The notes under the pieces are model-generated. The model worked only from the letters and a program-made list of their open reading frames with translations, was not told the origin of the DNA and did no database searches. Positions 25,027-36,521 of a stretch of 64,000 nt of DNA are shown here, piece after piece; the first letter of the stretch is position 1; the number at the start of each line of letters is the position of its first letter. Location: NCBI RefSeq assembly GCF_039542385.1, contig NZ_BAABIA010000008.1, positions 248,001-312,000 of the forward strand. The letters are read 5' to 3'. Origin of the DNA: Prosthecobacter algae (GTDB taxonomy: Bacteria; Verrucomicrobiota; Verrucomicrobiia; Verrucomicrobiales; Verrucomicrobiaceae). The translations under genes and the position numbers were made by a program.

Positions 25027-26136
25027 TCAGTTCGCCCGGCGCACCAGCATGGGGCTAGGCTGCAGGTCATCGGCGCTCGGTGGCACCGCACCGATGTTGG
25101 GACTCACCACGGGGGGCAGCTCATCTTCCATGTTCCAGGGGCCCAGCTTGGTGGCGGCAAAGGTGTTGAAGGGCGCATACAGCGTGATCACTTCGCCGGA
25201 GCGGCGGTTGCCCTGCTTCAGCGAAAAGCGAATCCGGGTCTGGGAAAACTCCGCGTTGGCTTCATCAATGGTGAGGTTGATCGGGGCCACGCTGTTGTTG
25301 ATCGGAAAGGCAAACTGGGTCAGCACCACACCCCCATCGGGCGTCACCTCCATCGTGCGGTCCAGGCGGCGCTGCAGGACCTTCCAGCGGGCATTGCCCG
25401 TGGTGGCACCCATGCGCAGGATCTCCGCCACCGTGAAGGGCTCCAGCGTCAGTTCCGTATACGTCACCAGCGTCAGCCCGGAGGTGGTGCCACGGACGGC
25501 CACGCTCTCCGCCACGGAGAACAGGGGAGCGGATGGGATCGCGGTGGTGGGCTGGTTTTTAAAGGTCACGCTCAGCGGCAGCGGGCGGTTGGCCGTGAGG
25601 ATGCGGGGGAAGAAATGAGCCGCACCCGTGCGCAGGGTGGTGTTCGCGGCCATCAGCTCCGTGGTGCCCGTTTTCACACTGCTCACATCCCACTGGGCCG
25701 TGTTGATGATCGTGAATCCGCGTGGCCGCTGGGCAAAGGCCACCACTGAAAAGCTGGGCTGCGTGCGGCTGTTAAAAAGGCTGCCATTCACCAGCGTTGT
25801 AGGCCCCGTGATGGCCGTCGAAGGAATGGTGAAGCGGATCAGCTTGGGCGATACATAGGTCACCGGTGCCGACACCCCCAAACCCTGGGACGTGCGGAAT
25901 TGGATGTGCGACACCGTCCGCACCTCCCCGATCACCGCCCCGCCAAAGGTGGTGCTATCGGCTTCGAGGTTCGCCAGCACCGAGTGGCCCGCAGGAGCAC
26001 CCGAAGGCACATAGGAGGTGATGACCGGGATGCCCTTGGGCGAGGCCCCACTTTGGGCAGACAGTTGGTTAGCCATGCCCAGAGACAGGGCCAGAAGAGT
26101 CCCGAGATGGAGGAGGAAGGAGCGTTTCGTTTTCAT
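25027..26136 (-). CDS. secreted IPT/TIG-like paralogue A
   Basis: The 369-residue product has a signal peptide (1 to about 28, ending L-S-A-Q). The first mature domain (about 35-135) has an IPT/TIG-like layout: P-V-I-T-S-Y-V-P-S-G-A-P-A-G, later Y-V-S-P-K-L-I-R-F-T-I-P and I-T-G-P. The middle section mentions N-T-A-Q-W, where the sister proteins have N-S-Q-Y-N, and the C-terminal half is beta-rich. It is the last of three tandem paralogues of similar size and plan. Function is unknown; a surface or periplasmic structural role is likely. It has the same upstream element as the other two. Confidence 0.85.
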   Translation of the reverse strand: MKTKRSFLLHLGTLLALSLGMANQLSAQSGASPKGIPVITSYVPSGAPAGHSVLANLEADSTTFGGAVIGEVRTVSHIQFRTSQGLGVSAPVTYVSPKLIRFTIPSTAITGPTTLVNGSLFNSRTQPSFSVVAFAQRPRGFTIINTAQWDVSSVKTGTTELMAANTTLRTGAAHFFPRILTANRPLPLSVTFKNQPTTAIPSAPLFSVAESVAVRGTTSGLTLVTYTELTLEPFTVAEILRMGATTGNARWKVLQRRLDRTMEVTPDGGVVLTQFAFPINNSVAPINLTIDEANAEFSQTRIRFSLKQGNRRSGEVITLYAPFNTFAATKLGPWNMEDELPPVVSPNIGAVPPSADDLQPSPMLVRRAN

Positions 26137-26195
26137 GAGCGTGTGTGTGTGAAGCTGGATTTTGCAGAGTTTTCCGGCCCGCCATCGGGCCTTCG

Positions 26196-26236
26196 TTCAC
26201 AGCGCAGATGCAGGCCGCCGGGAGAACTTGCGCAGA
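26196..26236 (-). promoter_or_regulatory. conserved 41-bp upstream element, copy A
   Basis: On the minus strand TCTGCGCAAGTTC, 10 variable bases, then CTGCATCTGCGCTGTGAA. Its near edge lies 60 bp ahead of the ATG at 26136. The same bipartite element, with identical internal spacing, precedes the two sister genes. It could be a promoter, operator or leader RNA. Confidence 0.7.
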
Positions 26237-26330
26237 TTCATGAAAAAAGATTCGCAGGGCCTTTTGCACCTCCATCCCCCGCCTCGCGCCGGAACGCGCC
26301 GAGGGCTTGTTCGCCACCGCATTATCACGC

Positions 26331-26358
26331 AAAAACTCCGCCGGTTTCGCGGCGGAGT
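26331..26358 (-). terminator. intrinsic terminator of paralogue B
   Basis: On the minus strand ACTCCGCC, an 8-base loop, GGCGGAGT, then TTTT. It lies about 35 bp after the stop of the 26392 gene and nearly repeats the terminator of paralogue C. Confidence 0.75.
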
Positions 26359-26391
26359 CTCGGTGCTGAACTTCCATCCTAACCTAGGGCT

Positions 26392-27462
26392 TCAGAAGGG
26401 TTCATAGGTCAGGCCGTCGCCGGTGATGAAGCTGGGCAGGAAACCGGGGTTCGTCAGCGTGATGGCCATGTTGGCGTGCAGGCTGTTGTTCTGGTTGCGC
26501 AGCGGCACGGCGATCTGGCTCACCAGGTTGGCCCAGCTCGAAGGCTCGTTCACCGGACCGCTGGCGATGATGTTGGCGGGATCACCCTGCCACTTGCGGA
26601 AGCTCATCGCACCGGTGGTGGTGTCAGAGATGAAGTCATACCCGTCGAAGAAGCCCGTGAGGACATTGAAGCCCATCCAGCGGGAGGTCATGAGGTTGCC
26701 ATTCAAGGTGAAGCTCGGGGTGGAGCGCAGCATCTCACGGGCCGTCAGGCGCTCAGCCGTGACAGCGATGGGGAAACCGCCTTCGGCAGCGCTGAAGGGG
26801 CGGGCGGTGACGGTGCCGCCATCGCGGGTCAGGATCGGGCGGTTGCGGTCAATGCCGATGCTGTAGATCACGCGGTAGTTGCTGCCCGCAGGCAGGCCCA
26901 GATCCCCAAAGCCCCCGGGTACCACCACCTGGTTGCCGGTCAGTTGCTCAACACCATTCACCTTGATGCTCACCATGTTATACTGGCTGTTGTTAAAGAA
27001 GGCGATGCCCAGGTTGCTCACGGTGAAGGTGCCGGTGGAAAGGCTGGAGGGGGCCTGGCTGCCCGTGCCATTTACCAATTTCAGGCGGCCGGTGCGCGCG
27101 CCCTGCGGCACCACCACGGAGTAGCGGTTGTTGCCCAGGGAGGTCAGGTTTTGGCCCTCCACAAAGGTGCTGCCAGGGCCGGTGAAAAACACCTTGTAGT
27201 TAGGCGTGAACCGGCTGGACAGGTTGCTGGGAAAACGGGTGGCGAGATCGATGAACCTGTTTTTGTTGATCTGTATCAGCTTGGCGATGGCGGGGTCCAG
27301 CTCCGGACGAGTGACGATGACCTCAATCACTTGGCCCACGCTGGCCTGTGCAGGGGTGATGCTGCCGATGCGGTTGATCAGGACGGGGGCGGCCTGGACG
27401 GAGGTAGCCATGGAGGCCAGCAGGCTGGCGGCGATGGCGAGGAGGGTGGTGCGACGTTTCAT
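26392..27462 (-). CDS. secreted IPT/TIG-like paralogue B
   Basis: The 356-residue product has a signal peptide (1 to about 24, ending V-Q-A). The mature N-terminus has R-I-G-S-I-T-P-A-Q-A-S-V-G-Q-V-I-E-V, an IPT/TIG-type start, and continues to about 150. A central block reads S-Q-Y-N-M-V-S-I-K-V-N-G-V-E-Q-L (about 157-172), almost the same as in paralogue C (V-S-I-K-V-N-N-V-E-Q-L). A G-x-D-R-N strand region and a C-terminal beta domain follow. It starts at a leader CTCACTGACACCC with no Shine-Dalgarno. A role in carrying or displaying something at the cell surface is only a guess. Confidence 0.85.
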   Translation of the reverse strand: MKRRTTLLAIAASLLASMATSVQAAPVLINRIGSITPAQASVGQVIEVIVTRPELDPAIAKLIQINKNRFIDLATRFPSNLSSRFTPNYKVFFTGPGSTFVEGQNLTSLGNNRYSVVVPQGARTGRLKLVNGTGSQAPSSLSTGTFTVSNLGIAFFNNSQYNMVSIKVNGVEQLTGNQVVVPGGFGDLGLPAGSNYRVIYSIGIDRNRPILTRDGGTVTARPFSAAEGGFPIAVTAERLTAREMLRSTPSFTLNGNLMTSRWMGFNVLTGFFDGYDFISDTTTGAMSFRKWQGDPANIIASGPVNEPSSWANLVSQIAVPLRNQNNSLHANMAITLTNPGFLPSFITGDGLTYEPF

Positions 27463-27515
27463 GGGTGTCAGTGAGTTAGCTTCTGTAGATTCGGCGGGCG
27501 GCGTTGTTGCTGCCC

Positions 27516-27556
27516 TTCACAGCCCAGATGCAGGTCACTCCGCGAACTTGCGCAGA
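27516..27556 (-). promoter_or_regulatory. conserved 41-bp upstream element, copy B
   Basis: On the minus strand TCTGCGCAAGTTC, 10 variable bases, then CTGCATCTGGGCTGTGAA, with its near edge 54 bp ahead of the ATG at 27462. Confidence 0.75.
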
Positions 27557-27615
27557 ATCTGAAAAGATTTTTTCGACCCGATTTTCATTGCTGTATCTGC
27601 TGTTAGACCAGACGC

Positions 27616-27646
27616 AAAAAGACTCCGCCAGTTTCCCGGCGGAGTC
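27616..27646 (-). terminator. intrinsic terminator of paralogue C
   Basis: On the minus strand GACTCCGCC, an 8-base loop, GGCGGAGTC, then TTTTT, about 25 bp past the stop of the 27672 gene. This is the best terminator in the window. Confidence 0.85.
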
Positions 27647-27671
27647 TTCGCGTCCTCAGAGTACGCGGTGC

Positions 27672-28652
27672 TTATTGGCGGGTCACTACGATGGACTGGC
27701 CATTGCGACCGACGGTGGAGATGAAGCTGGCAAAGGGGAGAAAGAGATTCACCTGGCGCTGGCCGAGGCGGAAGGAGAGGCTGCGGCTGTTGTCTGGCCA
27801 GGAGGTTTCCGCATAGGTGCTGGACTCCACCACCGTGGTGCGGCCGCTGCGGGTCTCGCGGATCTGGTAGTTGCCATTGTTCAGCATGCGGACGGTGCGG
27901 AGGTAAGGGGTCAGATTGGCATCAAAGAGAATGTCGGAGGCCCAGTCGCCGCTGGTGCGGAAATTCGTCATCAGCTGGCGCAGCGTCACGCGGGGCACAT
28001 TGTAGGTGGAGGTGCGGCCACGGGTGATGGTGAAACGCTGGGTGAAGAAAAACATGGCGCCTTCATTGGGGGTGATGCCCAGACTGACTTGGACATTGTA
28101 GCTGCCGGGATTGAGATCCAGCGTCCCCGTCTGGCGCACGGGCAGGATGAATCCGGCCTGCAGTTGCTCCACATTGTTCACCTTGATGCTCACCAGGTTA
28201 TACTGGCTGCCGTTCACGATGTTCAGGCGGCCTTTGCCAGCAGGTGGCGGTGGCGCAGTCACCACAAAGTCCGTGAGCGTGGAGGAAACATATGGGGACT
28301 GCGACAGGCGAATGCGGCCCGTGATGGCCGCCGCAGGCACCGTGACACGGAGCTGGGCCGGGGAGACATACGTGAAGGTGGCATTCACAAACTGGCCCGT
28401 GCTGGTGCGAAACTGGATGACGTAGGGAGGCGTGACGGTGGGAGTGGTGGCCCACACATTGCCCAGGCGGTCGCGGTTGAGATTGCGCCCGTTAATCGTG
28501 ATCACCGCGCCTGGGGCACCCGTGGCAGGGCTGGCGGAGGTGATCTGCGGCGGTGGCGGTGGCAGGCCCATCTGGGCGGAGGCCTGCTGGCCCACGGTGA
28601 CGGCGAGCAAGGTGACAAGGGTGAGGAAGAGGCGGCGGCTGAATGTTTTCAT
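27672..28652 (-). CDS. secreted IPT/TIG-like paralogue C
   Basis: The start is placed at 28652 because the signal peptide (M-K-T-F-S-R-R, hydrophobic to about residue 26, A-S-A-Q) begins there; 10 extra upstream codons are possible but unlikely. The product is 326 residues. A Pro-rich linker leads into an IPT/TIG domain (about 35-130: P-Q-I-T-S-A-S-P-A-T-G-A-P-G-A-V-I-T-I-N-G) with Y-V-S-P-A-Q-L-R-V-T-V-P. The shared central block S-Q-Y-N-L-V-S-I-K-V-N-N-V-E-Q-L follows at about 150-166, then a beta-rich C-terminus. It is the first gene of the tandem set; each member has its own upstream element and terminator, so they are probably separate transcripts. Confidence 0.85.
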   Translation of the reverse strand: MKTFSRRLFLTLVTLLAVTVGQQASAQMGLPPPPPQITSASPATGAPGAVITINGRNLNRDRLGNVWATTPTVTPPYVIQFRTSTGQFVNATFTYVSPAQLRVTVPAAAITGRIRLSQSPYVSSTLTDFVVTAPPPPAGKGRLNIVNGSQYNLVSIKVNNVEQLQAGFILPVRQTGTLDLNPGSYNVQVSLGITPNEGAMFFFTQRFTITRGRTSTYNVPRVTLRQLMTNFRTSGDWASDILFDANLTPYLRTVRMLNNGNYQIRETRSGRTTVVESSTYAETSWPDNSRSLSFRLGQRQVNLFLPFASFISTVGRNGQSIVVTRQ

Positions 28653-28706
28653 GGGATGGAGGACGGTGAAGGATTTCGACATGGGGCGGGCAGCTCAGTG
28701 CCGCCC

Positions 28707-29206: not shown

Positions 29207-30475
29207 TCAGAACTTCAGAGTGATCTGCCCGGCCACCAGATGGTGGCCTTCGCGGCCCGCGCCCTGCCGTCCGGCCATGCTGTATTGCAGCTTCGCCTGG
29301 AGGTGGCGACTGAAGCGATAGCCCACCGAAACATCCGCCCGCCAGCCATCATTGTCCCAGGCGGTGTCAGTGCCTGGCAGATCGCCGAACCAACTTTGAT
29401 TCCACCTTGTGGCCACCCACCATTGGGGCCCGAGCTTGCGCTTCACCTCCACAAAGCCGCTCACGACGCGGACGGTCCCGGCATTGGCTTCCAGAAAAGG
29501 CGGAACAAGGTGGTTGCCACCTAGATTAGGCACTTCAAAGCGGCTGTTCATCAGCTCTCCCCACACCTGCCAGGGACCGTGGGTCCAGGAGGCATCCACC
29601 CCGTAAGTGGTCTGGTAATAGTCCTCCCGTTTGGTGAAAGGATTGCCGCCCGGGACGACCATAATGCGCTGCCTGGGGGATCGCGCATCCACCAGGTAGG
29701 CCCCACGGCTGTAGGAGATGCCCATGTCCCATTCCGGTGCAGGCCGCCATCCGATGCGCCCTGTATAAGTGGTGGCATCCCACCCGTTTTCCACCCCGTC
29801 CCAGGATCGGGGGGCAGAGGCCAGCGCGGCATTTTTAGCTTCAAAGGCATAGTCAAACAGACCGATTTGGCCAAAGACCGAGGCCCCAGTGGCATAGGAC
29901 GGACCCCAGATGATGGGCTGCCAGGTCTGGCGGTTGTCCGGCAGGTTGCGTCGGTTTTGGAAGGCGGCAAAAGGCACCGCTCCATCATCGCTCACCGGCA
30001 GCATATCGCTGTAGGCCATGGGCGCGGTGATGAAGGGATTGTCCCAGGACAGGCGGCGCTGGGTCCAGGCGCCAAAGGCCGTGGCAAACTTGCCTAACCG
30101 GAAGTTGATCCAGCTTTTCTCCAGGGGTTTCCATTCGAGAAAGTATTCGTCCAGCCGCGTCTGGCCATCCGGGGCAAAGCCGGGATCAAAGCCCCGGTCC
30201 ACCCGCATCTGCACATGGCCACGCAGATGCTCCGTCGCCTGGAGATCCAGAAACAGCGTCAGGCGCGGATTGAAAAACAAATCGTCATCCGTATTCAGCA
30301 GGCCCATGGCCGGCGTGTCGGGCGCATACAGCTCCAGATCAATCAAGCCCGATAGGTCCGCACGAAACATCTGGTTAGGCGTGGACACCGTCAGCGCTTC
30401 GTCCACCGTTTCCAGCACCGACTGGGCACTGGCGGAGACCGCGCTAAAAAGCAAAAGAGAGACAAGAAATTTCAT
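29207..30475 (-). CDS. outer-membrane porin-like beta-barrel
   Basis: The 422-residue product has a signal peptide (1 to about 18, A-S-A-Q). The mature part alternates short strands with W, Y and F girdle residues and G-R-I-G-W-type turns, and it ends in Phe (T-L-K-F), the outer-membrane assembly signal. R-L-G-K-F near residue 130 and the Y-Q-T-T-Y-G-V-D-A-S-W segment are typical of porins for phosphate, alginate or general solutes. The specific substrate is not visible. It is the last gene of an operon-like run; its ATG overlaps the cyclase stop by one base (TGATG). Confidence 0.82.
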   Translation of the reverse strand: MKFLVSLLLFSAVSASAQSVLETVDEALTVSTPNQMFRADLSGLIDLELYAPDTPAMGLLNTDDDLFFNPRLTLFLDLQATEHLRGHVQMRVDRGFDPGFAPDGQTRLDEYFLEWKPLEKSWINFRLGKFATAFGAWTQRRLSWDNPFITAPMAYSDMLPVSDDGAVPFAAFQNRRNLPDNRQTWQPIIWGPSYATGASVFGQIGLFDYAFEAKNAALASAPRSWDGVENGWDATTYTGRIGWRPAPEWDMGISYSRGAYLVDARSPRQRIMVVPGGNPFTKREDYYQTTYGVDASWTHGPWQVWGELMNSRFEVPNLGGNHLVPPFLEANAGTVRVVSGFVEVKRKLGPQWWVATRWNQSWFGDLPGTDTAWDNDGWRADVSVGYRFSRHLQAKLQYSMAGRQGAGREGHHLVAGQITLKF

Positions 30476-32178
30476 CAGTCGGGGGAGGGGTCAGTGACGA
30501 TGCGGAAAGCGGTGACAGCATCCGCGAAGCCTTTCAACCTCAAAGGTTCCAGCGGCACGGCAGGGATTTCGGAAGGCAGCAGCCTCTGCGTGGCAGCATC
30601 CACCACGATCTCTCCCGCCGCCGCGCTGCTGCACAGGCGGGCCGCCAAGTTCACACGCTCACCCACCACAGTGTAATCCGCCCGATTTTCTGCCCCGATG
30701 CAGCCCGCCACCACCGTGCCCGTGGCGATGCCAATGCCGATGCCCATCGGCTCCTTGCTTAGCGCATTCAGCCGCTGGCGCTCAGCGATCATCTCCAGGG
30801 CGCAGTTCACTGCATTCTGCGCATCCTCGCCATGGCTCGCAGGTGCCCCAAACAGGATCATGATGGCATCTCCGGCGAACTGGTTGATCACCCCATGCCA
30901 GCGATAAACCACCCGCGTCAGTGCCCCCATGTGATTGTTCAGCAGGGCGATGACCTCGCGCGGATCCCGCCCCGCGCTCAGGGCGGTATAACCACGGATG
31001 TCGCAAAACACCACCGTCACCTGGCGCAGCTCCCCGCCCAGCTGGATGCTGCCCGCCATGAGCTGCTCCGCCACGCGTGCATCCGCCACCATGTTCAGCA
31101 CCGAGTGGTAGCGCTCCTTCAGCTCCAGGCCCGCCGTCATGTCGTTGAAGGATTCCGTCAGCGCCGCCAGCTCATCCGTCCGTCCTTTCTCCAGCCGCAC
31201 CTTCAGATTCCCCCCGCGCACCTCATGGGTGGCCGCTACCAGTTCGCGGATGGGCTGCGCCAGCTGCGCGGCAAACAGCCAGCCCGCCACTGAGGCCAGC
31301 AGCAGCGCCAGCGCGCCGATGCCGATGACGCGCCATTGCAACGCTTTTTGTTGGGCCTGCAGCTCCGCCAGGGAAAACACGCTCACCAGCCAGGCCGGAG
31401 GAAAGCGGGACCCGGCATTCAGCAGGTGCGCATGGGCCAGGTACTCCGTGCCCTCCTGGCGGAAGGAAAACTCCGTCTGCTCCGTCGTCGTTTGCAGCGC
31501 CTTCAGAGCTGCGGCAGCGGCCTGGGGCAGGCTGGCCCCGAGAAGCTGCCCCTGAGTCCAAAAGGCCGCCTGCAAAGGCTGGTTCCCCTGCCCGCCCAGC
31601 ACAGGCATCAGCCGTCGTACACTCTGCCCCAGGAACAGCGTGCCCACCGTCTGGTCAAAGTTCCGAATGTGCATGGCCAGCACCCGATGCAGATCCTGCC
31701 CGCCCTCCGCCCCAGGCAGCAGGGCAAAGCCCACCTCCGCCTGCACCTGCTCCTCCGGCAGCGTTTTCGCCACGGCCTCCAGTTGCAGCGTCAGCGCCTT
31801 TTCAGCCGCCTCTTGAAAGCGACCCGAACGGCTGCCCTCCGGCGGCGGCATCATGCCCGTCTGGGCACTGGCCAGGCGGAAGAAATCAAACTCCGCCAGC
31901 CGCAGTTCATCCGCCGCCACCTGGTATGTTTCCGGGTCGCCTTCCTCCAGGGCCGCAAACAACCGCACCGATTCCGCCAGTCGCGCCGCCTGCTTCCGGG
32001 CCAGTTGCAGTTGCGCCTCCTGCTCCAGGCGAAAGGCCGCCATCTGCTGGCTGAAAAGCGTGTCCACCATGCGCCGGTACGATGCGCTGTTCTGGGTCTG
32101 TGCCACCATCAGCACCGCCGCCGTCGTGCCCGCCACCACTCCCAGAATGGCCTGCTGAAGCTTGGCGCGAAAGGTCAT
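30475..32178 (-). CDS. transmembrane class III adenylate/guanylate cyclase with HAMP
   Basis: This 567-residue sensor enzyme makes a cyclic nucleotide. In order: a first membrane helix (about 9-28); an extracytoplasmic sensor region (about 30-283) of helices with a beta segment, no named family; a second membrane helix (284-308); HAMP (about 305-360); a short linker; and the cyclase domain (about 384-555). The first metal-binding Asp is D393 in F-C-D-I-R-G, and the second lies in F-A-G-D-A-I-M-I-L-F-G. A V-G-E-R-V-N-L-A-A-R motif completes the active site. Substrate choice (ATP or GTP) is not certain from sequence. The gene lies 14 bp after the cupredoxin gene and overlaps the porin start, so they are co-expressed. 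Confidence 0.9.
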   Translation of the reverse strand: MTFRAKLQQAILGVVAGTTAAVLMVAQTQNSASYRRMVDTLFSQQMAAFRLEQEAQLQLARKQAARLAESVRLFAALEEGDPETYQVAADELRLAEFDFFRLASAQTGMMPPPEGSRSGRFQEAAEKALTLQLEAVAKTLPEEQVQAEVGFALLPGAEGGQDLHRVLAMHIRNFDQTVGTLFLGQSVRRLMPVLGGQGNQPLQAAFWTQGQLLGASLPQAAAAALKALQTTTEQTEFSFRQEGTEYLAHAHLLNAGSRFPPAWLVSVFSLAELQAQQKALQWRVIGIGALALLLASVAGWLFAAQLAQPIRELVAATHEVRGGNLKVRLEKGRTDELAALTESFNDMTAGLELKERYHSVLNMVADARVAEQLMAGSIQLGGELRQVTVVFCDIRGYTALSAGRDPREVIALLNNHMGALTRVVYRWHGVINQFAGDAIMILFGAPASHGEDAQNAVNCALEMIAERQRLNALSKEPMGIGIGIATGTVVAGCIGAENRADYTVVGERVNLAARLCSSAAAGEIVVDAATQRLLPSEIPAVPLEPLRLKGFADAVTAFRIVTDPSPD

Positions 32179-32192
32179 GGGCGCAGGTTCGA

Positions 32193-32837
32193 TTAACGCG
32201 AGAGTTGCACGGAGGCCGTCTTGCCATCCGTCACCGTCACTTGGCCCTGCACCGTTTTTTCGGAGGGCAGCAGCGCCTTGATCTGGTAGCTGCCCGCAGG
32301 CACACCGCTGATCTTGAAACGTCCCTGCGCATCCGTCACGGCAAACCAGGGCGTGTCCAGCACCAGCACCCGGCAGCGCATGTGCTGGTGGATCTCGCAG
32401 TAGATTTTGACGAGGCCCGCCTTGTCAAAGTTGATGCGCGGGCTGGGCTCATTCTTGCGAAATCGGCCCAGGTCAAAACGGCGCAGTTTGGAATAACTAA
32501 AAACGTTGTGAAATTCGTCATCGTTATTGGGGAACTCCGCGCTCGCACCCTTTTGCAAAGCCACCAGCGAAGGGCGAAACTGATACCCACGCTGCTGGAT
32601 CTTCACCACCTCTCCCGTGCGGGTCTGCGGATAGGTGCCGCCGCTCATCTCCAGCCACACAATGGCCACCCCAGGCTCTTCCCCTTCGATGGGTTTCACC
32701 GTCTTCGGTTTGTAGCCCGCATCCACCGCTGGCGGGCGCTGGCTGTCCAGCACCACCGTCCCCTGCACGCCTCCTGCGGCAAAGGCAGGCAGGCTCCAGG
32801 AAAGAACAATCAGAGGAATGAGAAGCAGGCCTTTCAT
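32193..32837 (-). CDS. exported cupredoxin/methylamine-utilisation-type copper protein
   Basis: The 214-residue product has a signal peptide (1 to about 20). A plastocyanin-like domain (about 55-160) carries the expected type 1 copper ligands: H110 in D-E-F-H-N, then C147, H150 and M153 in Y-C-E-I-H-Q-H-M. A C-terminal carboxypeptidase-regulatory-like beta domain follows (about 164-205: D-A-Q-G-R-F-K-I-S-G-V-P-A-G). The same two-part architecture is annotated as a methylamine utilisation protein in other bacteria, but no mau dehydrogenase genes are present here. It sits between an outer-membrane protein gene (46 bp upstream) and the cyclase gene (14 bp downstream). I infer electron or copper sensing for that cyclase. 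Confidence 0.85.
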   Translation of the reverse strand: MKGLLLIPLIVLSWSLPAFAAGGVQGTVVLDSQRPPAVDAGYKPKTVKPIEGEEPGVAIVWLEMSGGTYPQTRTGEVVKIQQRGYQFRPSLVALQKGASAEFPNNDDEFHNVFSYSKLRRFDLGRFRKNEPSPRINFDKAGLVKIYCEIHQHMRCRVLVLDTPWFAVTDAQGRFKISGVPAGSYQIKALLPSEKTVQGQVTVTDGKTASVQLSR

Positions 32838-32883
32838 CGCGGCCTATGAAAGCCGCATTTCCAGCCGCTGCCAACAGCGAAGG

Positions 32884-33759
32884 TCAAAACGCCCAACGCA
32901 CATTCAGCGCCCCGAACGGTGCGGGGTCCAGATTTTCATCCACCCGCACACGCTCTTGCTCATCACGGATTTCAAACTCGCCGCCGAAATTGATCCCGCC
33001 CCGCAGCGACACCGTCAGTTTGTCCGTCGCCTTCCAGATGATGGAGGCCGCGCCCTGCCAGCCGGAGACATCCAGGGTATTGGCTCCATCATTGCGGTCC
33101 AGGTCCCAGGACCCACCGCTGGGGTAAAGGCTGAGGCTCAGCGTCAGCGGCTCGCTTACCTTATAACCCAGCACCATGAAGGGCGGCGTCACCTGCACGA
33201 TCCAGTCACCCGGCCTCCAGATGAAACCCAGCGCTGGCAGCAGCGTGCCGTCCTCATTCGCATAGCTGGCAAAGACGCCGCCCGCGATGGTGAAGGTCTC
33301 TGTGAATTCATAGCCGATCAGGCCCAGGGCCGAGATCTGGAAATCATCCAGCGAGATGCCGTTGAAGTCCGTGCCCAGACCTGGTGTCACGAAGCCCAAG
33401 CCCCACCAGTTGCTGGTGGGCGAATTCCAAAAGTAGCCCACCTGCGCCTCCAGCGTGTGAAGGTCCATCGTTTCACCGGGATCAAAATTGAGCTGCGTGA
33501 GGTTGTAGCCCAGGGAGGTGCTCAGGCGGCCTCCTTCACCCACCTTCGTGCTCCACACCGGGATGATGGTGCGGACTTCGAACATCTCCAAACTGCCCTT
33601 CAAGCTGCCATCGAAATCCTGCTCTCCGATGAAGGTGGTATCCACCATGTAACCGGGGCGGCCAAAGCCGAAAGCAGCCGGGTCAATCAGTTCAGCCGCA
33701 GGCAGAGAAGCCGCCAAGGAGAAGGCGGCACAGAGGGGAAGCGTGAATTTGAGGGGCAT
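32884..33759 (-). CDS. outer-membrane beta-barrel protein (DUF6268-like)
   Basis: The 291-residue product has a signal peptide (1 to about 22, P-A-A). Most of the chain is amphipathic strands with Y, W and F at the ends, and the C-terminus is N-V-R-W-A-F, again an outer-membrane targeting signal. The layout (a metal- or solute-independent barrel, G-L-G-F-V-T-P-G-L-G, P-G-D-W-I-V-Q) resembles the family often labelled DUF6268. It is the first gene of the run that continues with cupredoxin, cyclase and porin. Its own role is unknown. Confidence 0.78.
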   Translation of the reverse strand: MPLKFTLPLCAAFSLAASLPAAELIDPAAFGFGRPGYMVDTTFIGEQDFDGSLKGSLEMFEVRTIIPVWSTKVGEGGRLSTSLGYNLTQLNFDPGETMDLHTLEAQVGYFWNSPTSNWWGLGFVTPGLGTDFNGISLDDFQISALGLIGYEFTETFTIAGGVFASYANEDGTLLPALGFIWRPGDWIVQVTPPFMVLGYKVSEPLTLSLSLYPSGGSWDLDRNDGANTLDVSGWQGAASIIWKATDKLTVSLRGGINFGGEFEIRDEQERVRVDENLDPAPFGALNVRWAF

Positions 33760-33824: not shown

Positions 33825-35711
33825 TTACACCCGACTCCAGCGCTGAAAGGTCTCGATAGCCTCATACTCGGCCAGCCCCAGGGCATCGTAGTTTCGGGCA
33901 TTCTGCCGGTTCGATTCAGGCGAGCCCAGCTCCAGGCTGGAAAGGGAACCGTAGCGGGAAAGCGCGCGGCCTTTGCGCCCGAGCTGCATCGGGCTCAGCG
34001 GCACCGCCATGTCGATCTCATGCGCCGCCAGCGGCTTCTCCTTGCCGCGATACAGCCACAGGCTGGCACTGCCTGCCCAGTCTTCTTTCTTGCAGGCCTT
34101 CAGCGCACTTTCCAGCACGCGGAAGCAGATGCCGGAGACGCTGCTCGGATCCGCCGCATCCCCGGTGGTGTAGATCTGGTGTGGGCGATGCTCGCGCAGC
34201 AGGGCTGCCAGAGCCTCCACGTCCGCCTCCGTGCTTTTGAAGCGGCGGTAACGACCCTGCTCATAGAAGGGCAGGTCCAGGAAGGTCACATGGTCCGTTC
34301 CCACATTGCAGGCATGGGCCGCATCGCGCAGTTCCCCACGCAGGATCAGGCCCTTCAGCTGGCGCAGCACGGGAGTGTCTTCGCCGAATTCACCCTTCTC
34401 CTCCAGCAGGCGCAGCACCTCGCGGGCATAGGCCGTCTGGTTTTGCCAGGCCGGACTGTCTTCCACGATGCCTGCCAGCTCCAGCAAGGTGCCGGCAAAC
34501 TTGTCCGCCTCGCTGTCGGCAATGCGCAGGCTGCCGCTCGTCAGCGCGACGATGCGCACATCATGCCCCTGCTCGACGAGTCGCTCGATCGTGCTGCCCA
34601 TGGCCACGATGGCATCCTGCGGCTCCGGACTGAAAACGAGCACGCGCTTCGGATACGGCGTGGCCCGTTCTGGACGGTAGGTGTCGTCCTCGTTCGGCTT
34701 GCCGCCGGGCCAGCCCGTGATGGTGTGCTGCAGCTGGTTGAAGATGCGGATGTTGAGCTGATAAGCCGGACCTTGTTCCGAAAGGAGATCGCTCAGGCCA
34801 TGCTCATTGTAGTGCTCATCCGTCAGCTTCAGCACCGGGCGCTTCGTTTTAAAGGCCTGCCAGGTCACCGCACGGCGGGTCTCCCGCGGGGTCCAGGACA
34901 CTGGGCCCACGAGCCACGGCAGCTTCACCCGCGTCAGCTCGCGCGAGGCCCCAGCATCAATGAAGAAACGGGCATCTGGATGATCCTGAAGGAAGGAGGC
35001 GGAGATGGCCTCCGTCACTTCGCCTTCCACGGCCTTGGCCACCATCTCGGCCTTGTTTTCACCCCAGGCCATCAGCACCAGTTTCTTGCCGCGCAGGATG
35101 GTGCCCACCCCCATGGTGATGGCAAAGTGCGGCACGTTTTCCTCCCCACGGAAGTCGGCGGCGGCATCCTGGCGCGTCACGCGGTCCAGCGTGATGCGGC
35201 GTGTCAGGGAGTCGCGGCTGGAGCCCGGTTCGTTGAAACCGATGTGGCCCGTGCGCCCGATCCCCAGGATCTGGAAATCAATGCCGCCTGCCGCATCCAT
35301 CTTCTCTTCATACTCGCGGCAATGAGCGAACACCTGGTCTCCGGGAACAAGACCGCTGGGGATGTTGATGTTCGCCTTCGGGATGTCGATGTGATCGAAA
35401 ATCTGCTCCCGCATGAAGCAGGCGTAGCTCTCAGGATGGTCACCGCTGAGGCCGTAGTATTCGTCGAGGTTGAAGGTGATGACGTTCTTGAAGCTCAGCC
35501 CTTCTTCCTTATGCAGGCGGATCAGTTCTCGGTAAAAAGGCACCGGGGTGGAACCTGTGGCCATGCCAAGCACGACATTTTTCCCCTGCATGGCGCGCTC
35601 CTCGATCAGCGCCTTCACCTCAGCCGCGAGGGCCTTTGCCGCCGCTCCAGAGTTGGGGAAAATATGGGTGGGAATGTGCTCGTAGGACTCAGCAAGGGTG
35701 CGGCGGGACAT
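33825..35711 (-). CDS. nagB: glucosamine-6-phosphate deaminase fused to degenerate PIG-L domain
   Basis: The 628-residue protein has an N-terminal NagB domain (about 10-275) with N-L-D-E-Y-Y (active-site Asp) and G-I-G-R-T-G-H-I-G-F-N-E-P (catalytic His and Glu), which converts glucosamine-6-phosphate to fructose-6-phosphate and ammonia. The C-terminal half (about 350-628) is a PIG-L/LmbE-type domain, a fusion also known in Bacteroidetes. Its zinc motif, normally H-P-D-D, reads S361-P-E-P-Q-D366, and the later H-x-x-H region reads S523-S-V-S526, so all zinc ligands are gone. I expect the deaminase to work and the PIG-L part to be structural or regulatory. It follows a KDPG-aldolase-like gene after 177 bp, in which I see no convincing promoter. 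Confidence 0.9.
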   Translation of the reverse strand: MSRRTLAESYEHIPTHIFPNSGAAAKALAAEVKALIEERAMQGKNVVLGMATGSTPVPFYRELIRLHKEEGLSFKNVITFNLDEYYGLSGDHPESYACFMREQIFDHIDIPKANINIPSGLVPGDQVFAHCREYEEKMDAAGGIDFQILGIGRTGHIGFNEPGSSRDSLTRRITLDRVTRQDAAADFRGEENVPHFAITMGVGTILRGKKLVLMAWGENKAEMVAKAVEGEVTEAISASFLQDHPDARFFIDAGASRELTRVKLPWLVGPVSWTPRETRRAVTWQAFKTKRPVLKLTDEHYNEHGLSDLLSEQGPAYQLNIRIFNQLQHTITGWPGGKPNEDDTYRPERATPYPKRVLVFSPEPQDAIVAMGSTIERLVEQGHDVRIVALTSGSLRIADSEADKFAGTLLELAGIVEDSPAWQNQTAYAREVLRLLEEKGEFGEDTPVLRQLKGLILRGELRDAAHACNVGTDHVTFLDLPFYEQGRYRRFKSTEADVEALAALLREHRPHQIYTTGDAADPSSVSGICFRVLESALKACKKEDWAGSASLWLYRGKEKPLAAHEIDMAVPLSPMQLGRKGRALSRYGSLSSLELGSPESNRQNARNYDALGLAEYEAIETFQRWSRV

Positions 35712-35888
35712 GGTCTGGGGGCGGTGGTTGGGGAGGAAAGTCCGTCGTCTGATTCAAACGGCAAGCCAATCCATACGCGGATTCTGGCGTTGTTTCATCA
35801 GCACTCAACCCCGAACCTGCACCGCCTGCGATATCCGCGTGTGCGGCTCGCGTATTCCTGTGACCGGGAAGTCCCCACCCTGCCTCCC

Positions 35889-36521
35889 TCAGTTCGGATT
35901 GCGCACCACAGCCACCGTTTTGCCGCAAGCCTCCCGAACCTTCTCCCACTCCCCCTTCTGGATCCACTCGCGCCGCGCCATCCAAGTACCGCCACAGGCC
36001 ACCACATTTGGGTTTTTAATGTAGCCGGCCAAGTTTTCCAAATTCACCCCGCCTGTAGCCAGAAACTGCATTTTCGGAAACGGGCCTGCCAGCGCCTCAA
36101 TGGCCGTCAGGCCGCCAAAGGCCTGGCTGGGAAAAAAGTTCACCAGGCTCGCCCCTAGATTCTGCGCCTGCATGATCTCCGTCGGCGTCACCGCGCCTGG
36201 GATCACCAGCAAATCCCGCCGTCGACCATGCCGCAAAATGTTCTCATCAAACCCCGGCGTGACGATGAACCGCACCCCCAGACGCCACGCCGCATCAAAC
36301 TGCGCCAGCGTCGTCACCGTCCCTGCCCCCACGATCATGTCCCGCCGATCCAGGAGGCGCTCCAGCGCTGCCAGAGAATCCTGCGTACGCAAGGCCACTT
36401 CCACCACTGGCAGCCCCCCGGCCACCAGGGCATCGGAAAGAGGCTTGACCGATCTTAAGTCGTCAATAATCACGTTAGGGATGATGCGGTGATGAGCCAA
36501 AAGTTCGATGATCTCTTTCAT
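35889..36521 (-). CDS. KDPG/KHG aldolase-like protein lacking the Schiff-base lysine
   Basis: The 210-residue protein fits the 2-dehydro-3-deoxyphosphogluconate aldolase family across its length. It has V-E-V-A-L-R-T (general base Glu and substrate Arg, near 40-47), V-G-A-G-T-V, T-P-G, I-P-G-A-V-T-P-T-E, P-F-P-x-x-x-F-x-A-T-G-G-V and C-G-G-T-W-M. The site of the catalytic lysine, normally K-F-F-P, reads N128-F-F-P. Normal Schiff-base aldol chemistry should therefore be lost, unless another lysine has taken over. It could be a sugar-phosphate binding or differently acting relative. It is transcribed divergently from the strand-repeat protein gene and lies upstream of nagB. Confidence 0.82.
   Translation of the reverse strand: MKEIIELLAHHRIIPNVIIDDLRSVKPLSDALVAGGLPVVEVALRTQDSLAALERLLDRRDMIVGAGTVTTLAQFDAAWRLGVRFIVTPGFDENILRHGRRRDLLVIPGAVTPTEIMQAQNLGASLVNFFPSQAFGGLTAIEALAGPFPKMQFLATGGVNLENLAGYIKNPNVVACGGTWMARREWIQKGEWEKVREACGKTVAVVRNPN

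Follow-up and report, generated by a model that had tools for sequence, protein, structure and literature searches.

Several bacterial membrane sensors are fed by a periplasmic accessory protein, as in the systems SenC/PrrC with RegB/PrrB, NspS-MbaA, LuxP-LuxQ and TorT-TorS. The accessory proteins SenC/PrrC, NspS, LuxP and TorT have Sco-like or solute-binding folds, and each of these systems has one output type. Here we describe a locus of Prosthecobacter algae (Verrucomicrobiota) in which the gene for an exported cupredoxin is followed by the gene for a transmembrane receptor with a class III nucleotidyl cyclase output. It lies at positions 29207-33759 of the window, by which we mean the whole analysed stretch of 64,000 nucleotides (assembly GCF_039542385.1, contig NZ_BAABIA010000008.1, positions 248,001 to 312,000 of the forward strand). 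The core unit is the pair, an exported cupredoxin and then a Cache-type, HAMP-linked receptor with two transmembrane segments (TM). This pair recurs across phyla with conserved copper ligands, a shared sensor domain and exchanged outputs, and is co-inherited in its main lineages. On balance we consider it probable, judging from sequence comparison, that cupredoxin and cyclase belong to a single receptor system, in which the cupredoxin would be the periplasmic input subunit, read by the Cache-type domain.

An accessory protein in the periplasm working with a membrane sensor is of a known kind. Among the open-licence papers listed, most subscription papers lying outside that search, we found no description of the cupredoxin-sensor pair, nor of any blue copper protein that takes the accessory role in several phyla and with outputs that vary. 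The closest published systems differ from it in several ways. In Pseudomonas putida the gene of the cupredoxin CinA adjoins a two-component system, CinRS, but the source describes cinAQ as copper-inducible and does not describe CinA as an input; the likeness is one of description (PMC3056050). In HmsC-HmsD a diguanylate cyclase is under the control of a soluble protein of the periplasm whose cysteines are redox-sensitive; this control works by cysteine pairs and protein abundance, whereas the cupredoxins described here mostly have one Cys, a copper ligand, and again the two are likened by description (PMC8846402). In the main text of the same source, a 2022 census of cyclic di-GMP (c-di-GMP) inputs, the words "copper" and "cupredoxin" are absent (PMC8846402). 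The sCache_heme sensors are alike in that a Cache domain senses by means of a metal cofactor, a c-type heme, with nitric oxide (NO) as the signal, but that cofactor sits inside the Cache domain, whereas here the metal protein would be a separate subunit (PMC12889525). Also close is a Caballeronia plasmid, on which a "methylamine utilization protein" of the same cupredoxin family is followed by an "EAL domain protein" that is a dCache_3-HAMP-GGDEF-EAL receptor; unlike in the window, a c-di-GMP enzyme replaces the cyclase, and DUF3034 and a truncated globin replace the porin-like protein.

The earlier note, made from the letters of the window alone, had read the locus as four minus-strand genes separated by 46, 14 and -1 bases, and we confirmed these open reading frames and gaps at their coordinates. 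A promoter and terminator scan gave no signal above that of shuffled sequence. The features are as follows.

32193..32837, minus strand: exported cupredoxin with a CarboxypepD_reg tail, 214 amino acids; core, putative input subunit (Pfam, AlphaFold2, Foldseek)
32508..32510, minus strand: codon of the predicted copper ligand His110 (alignment)
32397..32399, minus strand: codon of the predicted copper ligand Cys147, in the C-x2-H-x2-M loop (alignment)
32388..32390, minus strand: codon of the predicted copper ligand His150 (alignment)
32379..32381, minus strand: codon of the predicted copper ligand Met153 (alignment)
30475..32178, minus strand: two-TM receptor, 567 amino acids, with a Cache-type extracytoplasmic domain, HAMP and a class III nucleotidyl cyclase; core
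31330..32088, minus strand: extracytoplasmic sensor domain, about residues 31-283, family B (remote homology by hhalign to the dCache_3-type family A)
31123..31275, minus strand: HAMP domain, residues 302-352 (Pfam PF00672)
30529..31026, minus strand: class III cyclase domain, residues 385-550 (Pfam Guanylate_cyc)
29207..30475, minus strand: porin-like protein, 422 amino acids; the third gene kept in the sensor-B lineage of the window's phylum
32884..33759, minus strand: DUF6268 barrel-like protein, 291 amino acids (Pfam DUF6268); a local extra, conservation with the pair not seen

The 214-amino-acid protein barely exceeded the Pfam cut-off for CarboxypepD_reg and stayed below that for Copper-bind (17.1 bits against 21.2). 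Its AlphaFold2 model, built from 45 sequences, had a mean predicted local distance difference test score (pLDDT) of 83.9 and a predicted template modelling score of 0.78, and a Foldseek search with it returned amicyanin (1id2, E 4.5e-7), NirK, pseudoazurin and plastocyanin. The modelled fold is that of a cupredoxin, and by this fold and its ligand set the protein would be a type 1 (blue) copper protein. His110, Cys147, His150 and Met153 stand at the residues where the earlier note had placed them, and the C-x2-H-x2-M loop is amicyanin-like in its spacing. Of 37 aligned sequences from the window's phylum, counting the window, 36 keep the His-Cys-His-Met set, the exception being L068, in which the first His is missing (loci are numbered L and genomes G throughout). 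Among cupredoxins with an adjacent sensor all four ligands were present in 149/149, the window again counted. A single Cys after residue 25 was present in 138 of these 149.

We then counted how often a sensor gene directly follows the cupredoxin gene. Neighbourhood genes were called with a codon-usage caller; a sensor was scored as next if the next gene on the same strand, at most 250 bases away, encoded a membrane sensor with a recognised output domain, and the other same-strand gene pairs of the same loci served as background. The cupredoxin was searched for in 288 genomes of the window's phylum and matched in 36, some of them to the tail only; this search gave 47 rows, from which the window and 10 low-scoring rows (one inside L053) were left out, and 36 places were used. 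A sensor was next in 26 of these 36 loci (background 3/238). From 410 confirmed relatives in the genome_contigs collection we used the best 80, a set biased towards close relatives in Burkholderiales, its first row being a Caballeronia protein, and found a sensor next in 76/80 (background 7/287). The fairer sample was an even draw of 398 Pseudomonadota genomes, which yielded 88 cupredoxin rows; 28 short, partial or weaker rows were left out, and in the 60 places used a sensor was next in 46 (background 4/202). Two loci were not scored as having a sensor next, L129 with its cyclase in two pieces and L145 with its cyclase upstream, and in L293 (G500) the gene caller missed a sensor that a profile of the sensor domain had found. 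Pairs in Pseudomonadota include complete plasmid records; from 52 matching plasmid records, three regions were viewed.

Named records of the pair came from a Chthoniobacterales metagenome-assembled genome (L105), Rokubacteria (L112), Methylomirabilota (L145), Nitrospinota (L129) and Desulfuromonadaceae (L147); contigs of metagenome-assembled genomes may be mis-binned. A test by phylum group covered 64 places, all those listed for two groups and 30 of a longer list for the third, with high- and low-scoring cupredoxins divided at E 1e-42, a cut chosen after the scores were seen. Among the places examined, a sensor match lay within 1.5 kb of 10/10 high-scoring cupredoxins in the Methylomirabilota group. 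Lower-scoring paralogues that were examined had a sensor in 0/20 cases in Methylomirabilota, 0/12 in the phylum group of Desulfuromonadaceae and 0/9 in Nitrospinota, so that it is mainly this cupredoxin subfamily, and not cupredoxins generally, that travels with the sensor. On a Sinorhizobium plasmid (L072) a cupredoxin of the wider family lies near a SCO protein and a cbb3 oxidase subunit and has no sensor. By eye, wider-family cupredoxins in L055 and L063 lie beside many-TM genes resembling cytochrome oxidase subunits, likewise with no sensor. The pair is therefore not unique to the P. algae genome. The coupling that the earlier note had proposed in general terms, of a cupredoxin with a nucleotide-signalling transmembrane sensor, recurs across phyla, and the note had named such recurrence as a point in its favour. 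The exact four-gene set did not survive as a unit and we rejected it: DUF6268 is local, being missing even from a same-genus locus (L034), and the cyclase is one of several exchangeable outputs.

The association was also examined from the side of the sensor. By BLAST the sensor domains fall into two families, A with 137 members and B with 12, the window among the latter. One sensor set held 38 of 44 listed rows plus the window and another 28 of 30 listed rows plus L070. A family-A profile made from cupredoxin-linked sensors found 58 places in 51 of the 398 Pseudomonadota genomes; on comparison of coordinates, 46 were directly behind a cupredoxin and 3 more at most two genes away. A long cupredoxin match was present in 50 of the 51 sensor-bearing genomes, and over all 398 genomes both partners occurred in 50, the cupredoxin only in 5, the sensor only in 1 and neither in 342, counting as cupredoxin-negative 21 genomes with only short or weak matches. 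Five genomes (G308, G419, G435, G451 and G668) have a cupredoxin with no sensor neighbour and a sensor elsewhere, and the unlinked sensor of G419 (L289) still adjoins DUF3034 and a globin. A family-B profile run on the 288 genomes of the window's phylum picked up 19 genes (21 rows), spread over 14 genomes; 12 of the genes are cupredoxin-linked, and the reciprocal test is weaker for family B than for family A. Unlinked sensors mostly lie in genomes that have the cupredoxin (8/9 for family A and 5/7 for family B).

Two side observations concern the unlinked genes. A second cyclase with a family-B sensor and no adjoining cupredoxin is encoded in the window's own genome (L270 4135-6027) and in two other genomes of its genus (L271 4543-6429 and L272 5563-7458); upstream of it, L270 and L271 also have a small gene for a lipoprotein-like product. 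A gene pair resembling, by eye, a TonB-dependent receptor and a PKHD-type hydroxylase (L206 1297-4356, L207, L292 5053-8047) adjoins the unlinked cupredoxins of G308 and G668 and the unlinked sensor of G412.

We compared a tree of 27 cupredoxins of the window's phylum with one of the 27 sensor domains paired with them. Three supported clades with identical membership (12, 10 and 4 rows) appeared in both. In each of five genomes (G169, G099, G122, G181 and G060) two pairs belonging to different clades are encoded, and in no case were the partners crossed. Within the 12-row clade, kinases and cyclases stand on the same sensor type, the cyclase being found in the window, L034 and L035. For 75 GGDEF-EAL pairs with a globin, distance correlations were 0.92 between cupredoxin and sensor, 0.94 between cupredoxin and output and 0.85 between cupredoxin and globin, which shows joint descent.

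Across the 148 pairs and the window, the best match of the output was GGDEF-EAL in 114, class III cyclase in 20 (window included), histidine kinase in 8, hybrid kinase in 5 and Ser/Thr kinase in 2, and examples of every type were confirmed by Pfam. Family A carries GGDEF-EAL, cyclase, hybrid kinase and Ser/Thr kinase outputs; family B carries kinase, cyclase and hybrid kinase outputs. A chemoreceptor is probably among the exchanged outputs, since in L069 a receptor of the architecture CHASE4-HAMP-MCP is the second gene downstream of the cupredoxin. Chemoreceptor-like genes also lie upstream of the cupredoxin on the opposite strand in L199, L204, L218 and L225, and MCPsignal was matched by 3 of 112 scanned Pseudomonadota neighbours.

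The two sensor families appear to be one remote-homology family, although strongly so only by full-set profiles: with these, hhalign gave a probability of 97.2 (E 3e-11, 253 columns), against 0.1 for shuffled and reversed controls. Pfam dCache_3 had no match in the window's receptor and was present in L048, L065, L226, L227 and L070. Foldseek with a partial model of the window sensor gave three matches with E up to 0.001, all of them WalK or McpB models; the sensor domains of KinD, CzcS and PhoQ were lower among the weak matches. We considered whether copper might be handed to ligands in the sensor domain and rejected this, as family A has no conserved Cys, His or Met pattern (no such column exceeds 61%); in family B, with 12 rows, a single Cys column stands at 67%. 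The lack of such a column in family A would favour a protein contact over copper transfer.

In the window's receptor, Pfam matched HAMP (PF00672) at residues 302-352 (E 1.4e-12) and Guanylate_cyc; the second hydrophobic segment lies near residue 283, and HAMP follows TM2. The earlier description of a HAMP-containing class III cyclase with an extracytoplasmic sensor region was thus borne out, the architecture being two-TM with a Cache-type domain. In class III cyclases the roles of the metal-binding Asp residues, of an Asn and an Arg, and of the Lys that specifies adenine are established. The window cyclase keeps the metal Asp pair, the Asn, the Arg and the Asp of the adenine pair, and has Gln in place of the base-specifying Lys. 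Among 25 aligned cyclases this Gln occurs only in the window and L034, while L112 has Arg and the other 22 Lys. The closest solved relatives are annotated as adenylate cyclases (2w01, 6fht and 3r5g), and the class III adenylate cyclase signature, the adenine-specifying Lys with the Asp/Thr pair, is incomplete in the window cyclase. Because Gln replaces Lys, cyclic AMP (cAMP) is not assured as the product, which may be cAMP or cGMP.

The third gene of the locus varies between lineages. Cupredoxin, sensor and porin-like genes are strictly consecutive in 10 relatives and the window, all of the sensor-B lineage. The earlier name of porin held in part: an apparent signal peptide, the length and a C-terminal Phe make the protein porin-like, but it matched no curated porin family, with no Pfam match and only 16.2 bits to the NCBIfam LbtU porin (cut-off 90). 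A phmmer search with the window's DUF6268 protein found no match among the called neighbourhood proteins of three locus sets. Recurrent neighbours in Pseudomonadota, where 112 of 116 listed neighbour proteins were scanned, were DUF3034 (28/112) and bacterial globin (23/112). An unannotated upstream family of about 285 amino acids is common to cyclase-type loci of several phyla (L105, L112, L131, L143, L147, L052, L054, L056, L058-L062 and L064); its set from the window's phylum matched that from the other named records at 99.9% by hhalign, and two members had no Pfam match. DUF3034 and this family may be outer-membrane barrels. A single conserved outer-membrane partner was rejected, as porin-B, DUF3034, DUF6268 and the 285-amino-acid family showed no convincing mutual match; the best of seven profile comparisons among outer-membrane-type families reached a probability of 9.5 (porin-B against the 285-amino-acid family). 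We infer that some outer-membrane route matters and that its identity is free.

Truncated globins adjoin 75/148 pairs, all 75 of the GGDEF-EAL type. The N-terminus was hydrophobic in 67 of 78 globins and a lipobox-like motif was present in 18; two Cys were conserved at 100% and 99%, and one His column, taken as the proximal His, in 78/78. An apparently exported globin family adjoins DUF3034 and the cupredoxin at L070 5447-5878, L190 5182-5634, L289 1623-2045 and other Pseudomonadota loci. MauG-type peroxidases lie just upstream of the cupredoxin in L069, with a cytochrome P460 in the same run, and between the cupredoxin and a PAS-containing hybrid kinase in L237.

Two further observations concern the surroundings of the locus. 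At 25027-28682 the window encodes three consecutive minus-strand exported-looking proteins, the third (27672-28682) with a TIG domain and sharing with the second a motif around SQYN-VSIKVN-VEQL. At 33825-36521 a fusion of a glucosamine-6-phosphate deaminase-like protein with a PIG-L deacetylase domain adjoins a KDPG aldolase, and the fusion and aldolase genes likewise precede the cupredoxin in the same-genus locus L034.

We propose that the copper centre of a soluble periplasmic cupredoxin would change its redox state or its loading with conditions in the periplasm, and that one form of the cupredoxin would dock on the receptor's Cache-type domain. TM2 and HAMP would relay the change to the cytoplasmic output, in the window a class III cyclase; in further lineages c-di-GMP enzymes or histidine, hybrid or Ser/Thr kinases would be driven by a cupredoxin and sensor domain of the same kind. 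The operon often also has an outer-membrane-type protein, whose family varies. What we observed is the pairing with its conserved ligands; that the two proteins touch, that redox is the signal and which way the signal runs are what we infer.

Several results weigh against this proposal. By our criterion no sensor was adjacent in 10/36 loci of the window's phylum and 14/60 of Pseudomonadota, and the genomes are related, so that the counts are not independent. Only 4 of the 10 Methylomirabilota sensors are directly downstream, 6 being upstream and some of these divergent, and a sensor lay within 1.5 kb of only 3/7 high-scoring cupredoxins in the phylum group of Desulfuromonadaceae and 3/6 in Nitrospinota. 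Linked cupredoxins were missing for 9/58 family-A places and 7/19 family-B genes; G412 has an A sensor and no cupredoxin, and G199 and G277 have a B sensor and no cupredoxin match. In the 10-row clade two supported cupredoxin forks, L061+L062 and L057+L060, disagree with forks that are themselves supported in the sensor tree, possibly through exchange inside the clade or tree error. The correlation of the cupredoxin with the sensor domain is no higher than that with the output, so the sensor domain is not singled out, and we rejected the mirror-tree comparison as proof of contact because it does not discriminate. Subsets of family A reached only 1.4-60.7% probability against the B-kinase profile and 0.1-13.3% against the three-row B-cyclase profile, the AlphaFold2 model of the window sensor (mean pLDDT 68.0) was poor at residues 84-199, and the one Cys column of family B is also a point on this side.

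It might be argued that these are unrelated envelope genes in an ordinary operon, kept by chance or descent, as neighbours tend to stay together in related genomes and relatedness affects the counts. We regard this as very improbable, given an adjacency of 72-95% against a background of 1-2%, the partners that co-occur while unlinked, and the paralogous cupredoxins with no sensor neighbour. Alternatively, the Cache domain could bind a small ligand of its own, and the cupredoxin, as a downstream or parallel carrier of electrons, would share only its regulation with the sensor. Ligand binding is the general role of Cache domains (PMC12889525), the KinD and CzcS sensor domains are among the weak structure matches, sensors with no linked cupredoxin exist, and cupredoxins of the wider family without a sensor lie near respiration genes, as in L072; yet the pairing persists although the output and the third gene change, most unlinked sensors share a genome with the cupredoxin, and co-regulation alone does not predict one sensor family with several outputs. 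This explanation therefore seems to us unlikely.

The receptor could also sense copper supply, with apo and copper-loaded cupredoxin as the signal and an output that tunes copper use or uptake. The ligands kept in every paired cupredoxin would fit, and cinAQ-cinRS, an azurin-like protein beside a two-component system, is a precedent (PMC3056050). However, the 112 scanned neighbour proteins matched 79 families, and the 25 most frequent of these include none for copper homeostasis; a globin and a barrel-like family are what recurs there. We hold copper supply to be quite unlikely as the signal. The same absence, together with the single Cys of most cupredoxins and the heme-protein neighbours in part of the loci, makes a redox or oxidant reading fit somewhat better. 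A special case of our proposal, which we consider less likely than not, is that the sensor monitors an envelope electron-transfer chain in which the cupredoxin shuttles electrons between the globin, the MauG-type peroxidase or another oxidase, so that its redox poise is a proxy for oxidant, O2 or NO. The globins beside half of the pairs, with their mostly hydrophobic N-termini, invariant His and two near-invariant Cys, the peroxidases of L069 and L237 and the cytochrome P460 of L069 speak for it; pairs with other outputs, among them those of the window's phylum, showed no globin next to them, and peroxidases were seen in two loci only.

Relatives of this cupredoxin are often annotated as "methylamine utilization protein". 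The earlier note had seen no methylamine dehydrogenase genes in the window; PF02975 had no match in the window's genome, although the control matched nowhere either, and no Me-amine-dh family was among the 25 most frequent of the 79 families in the Pseudomonadota neighbours. The label seems misleading for this cupredoxin, and our proposal, if true, would correct it. Beyond the single locus, there may be a general receptor class, a possibility that we place a little short of even, in which a soluble blue copper protein is the input and the output is exchangeable, the redox state of periplasmic copper being turned, according to lineage, into cAMP or cGMP, c-di-GMP, a phosphorelay, phosphorylation on Ser/Thr, or chemotaxis. 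The textbook role of cupredoxins is to carry electrons; if our proposal is true, they would act as signal inputs too, and a periplasmic redox or copper signal could be assigned to many orphan GGDEF-EAL proteins and cyclases.

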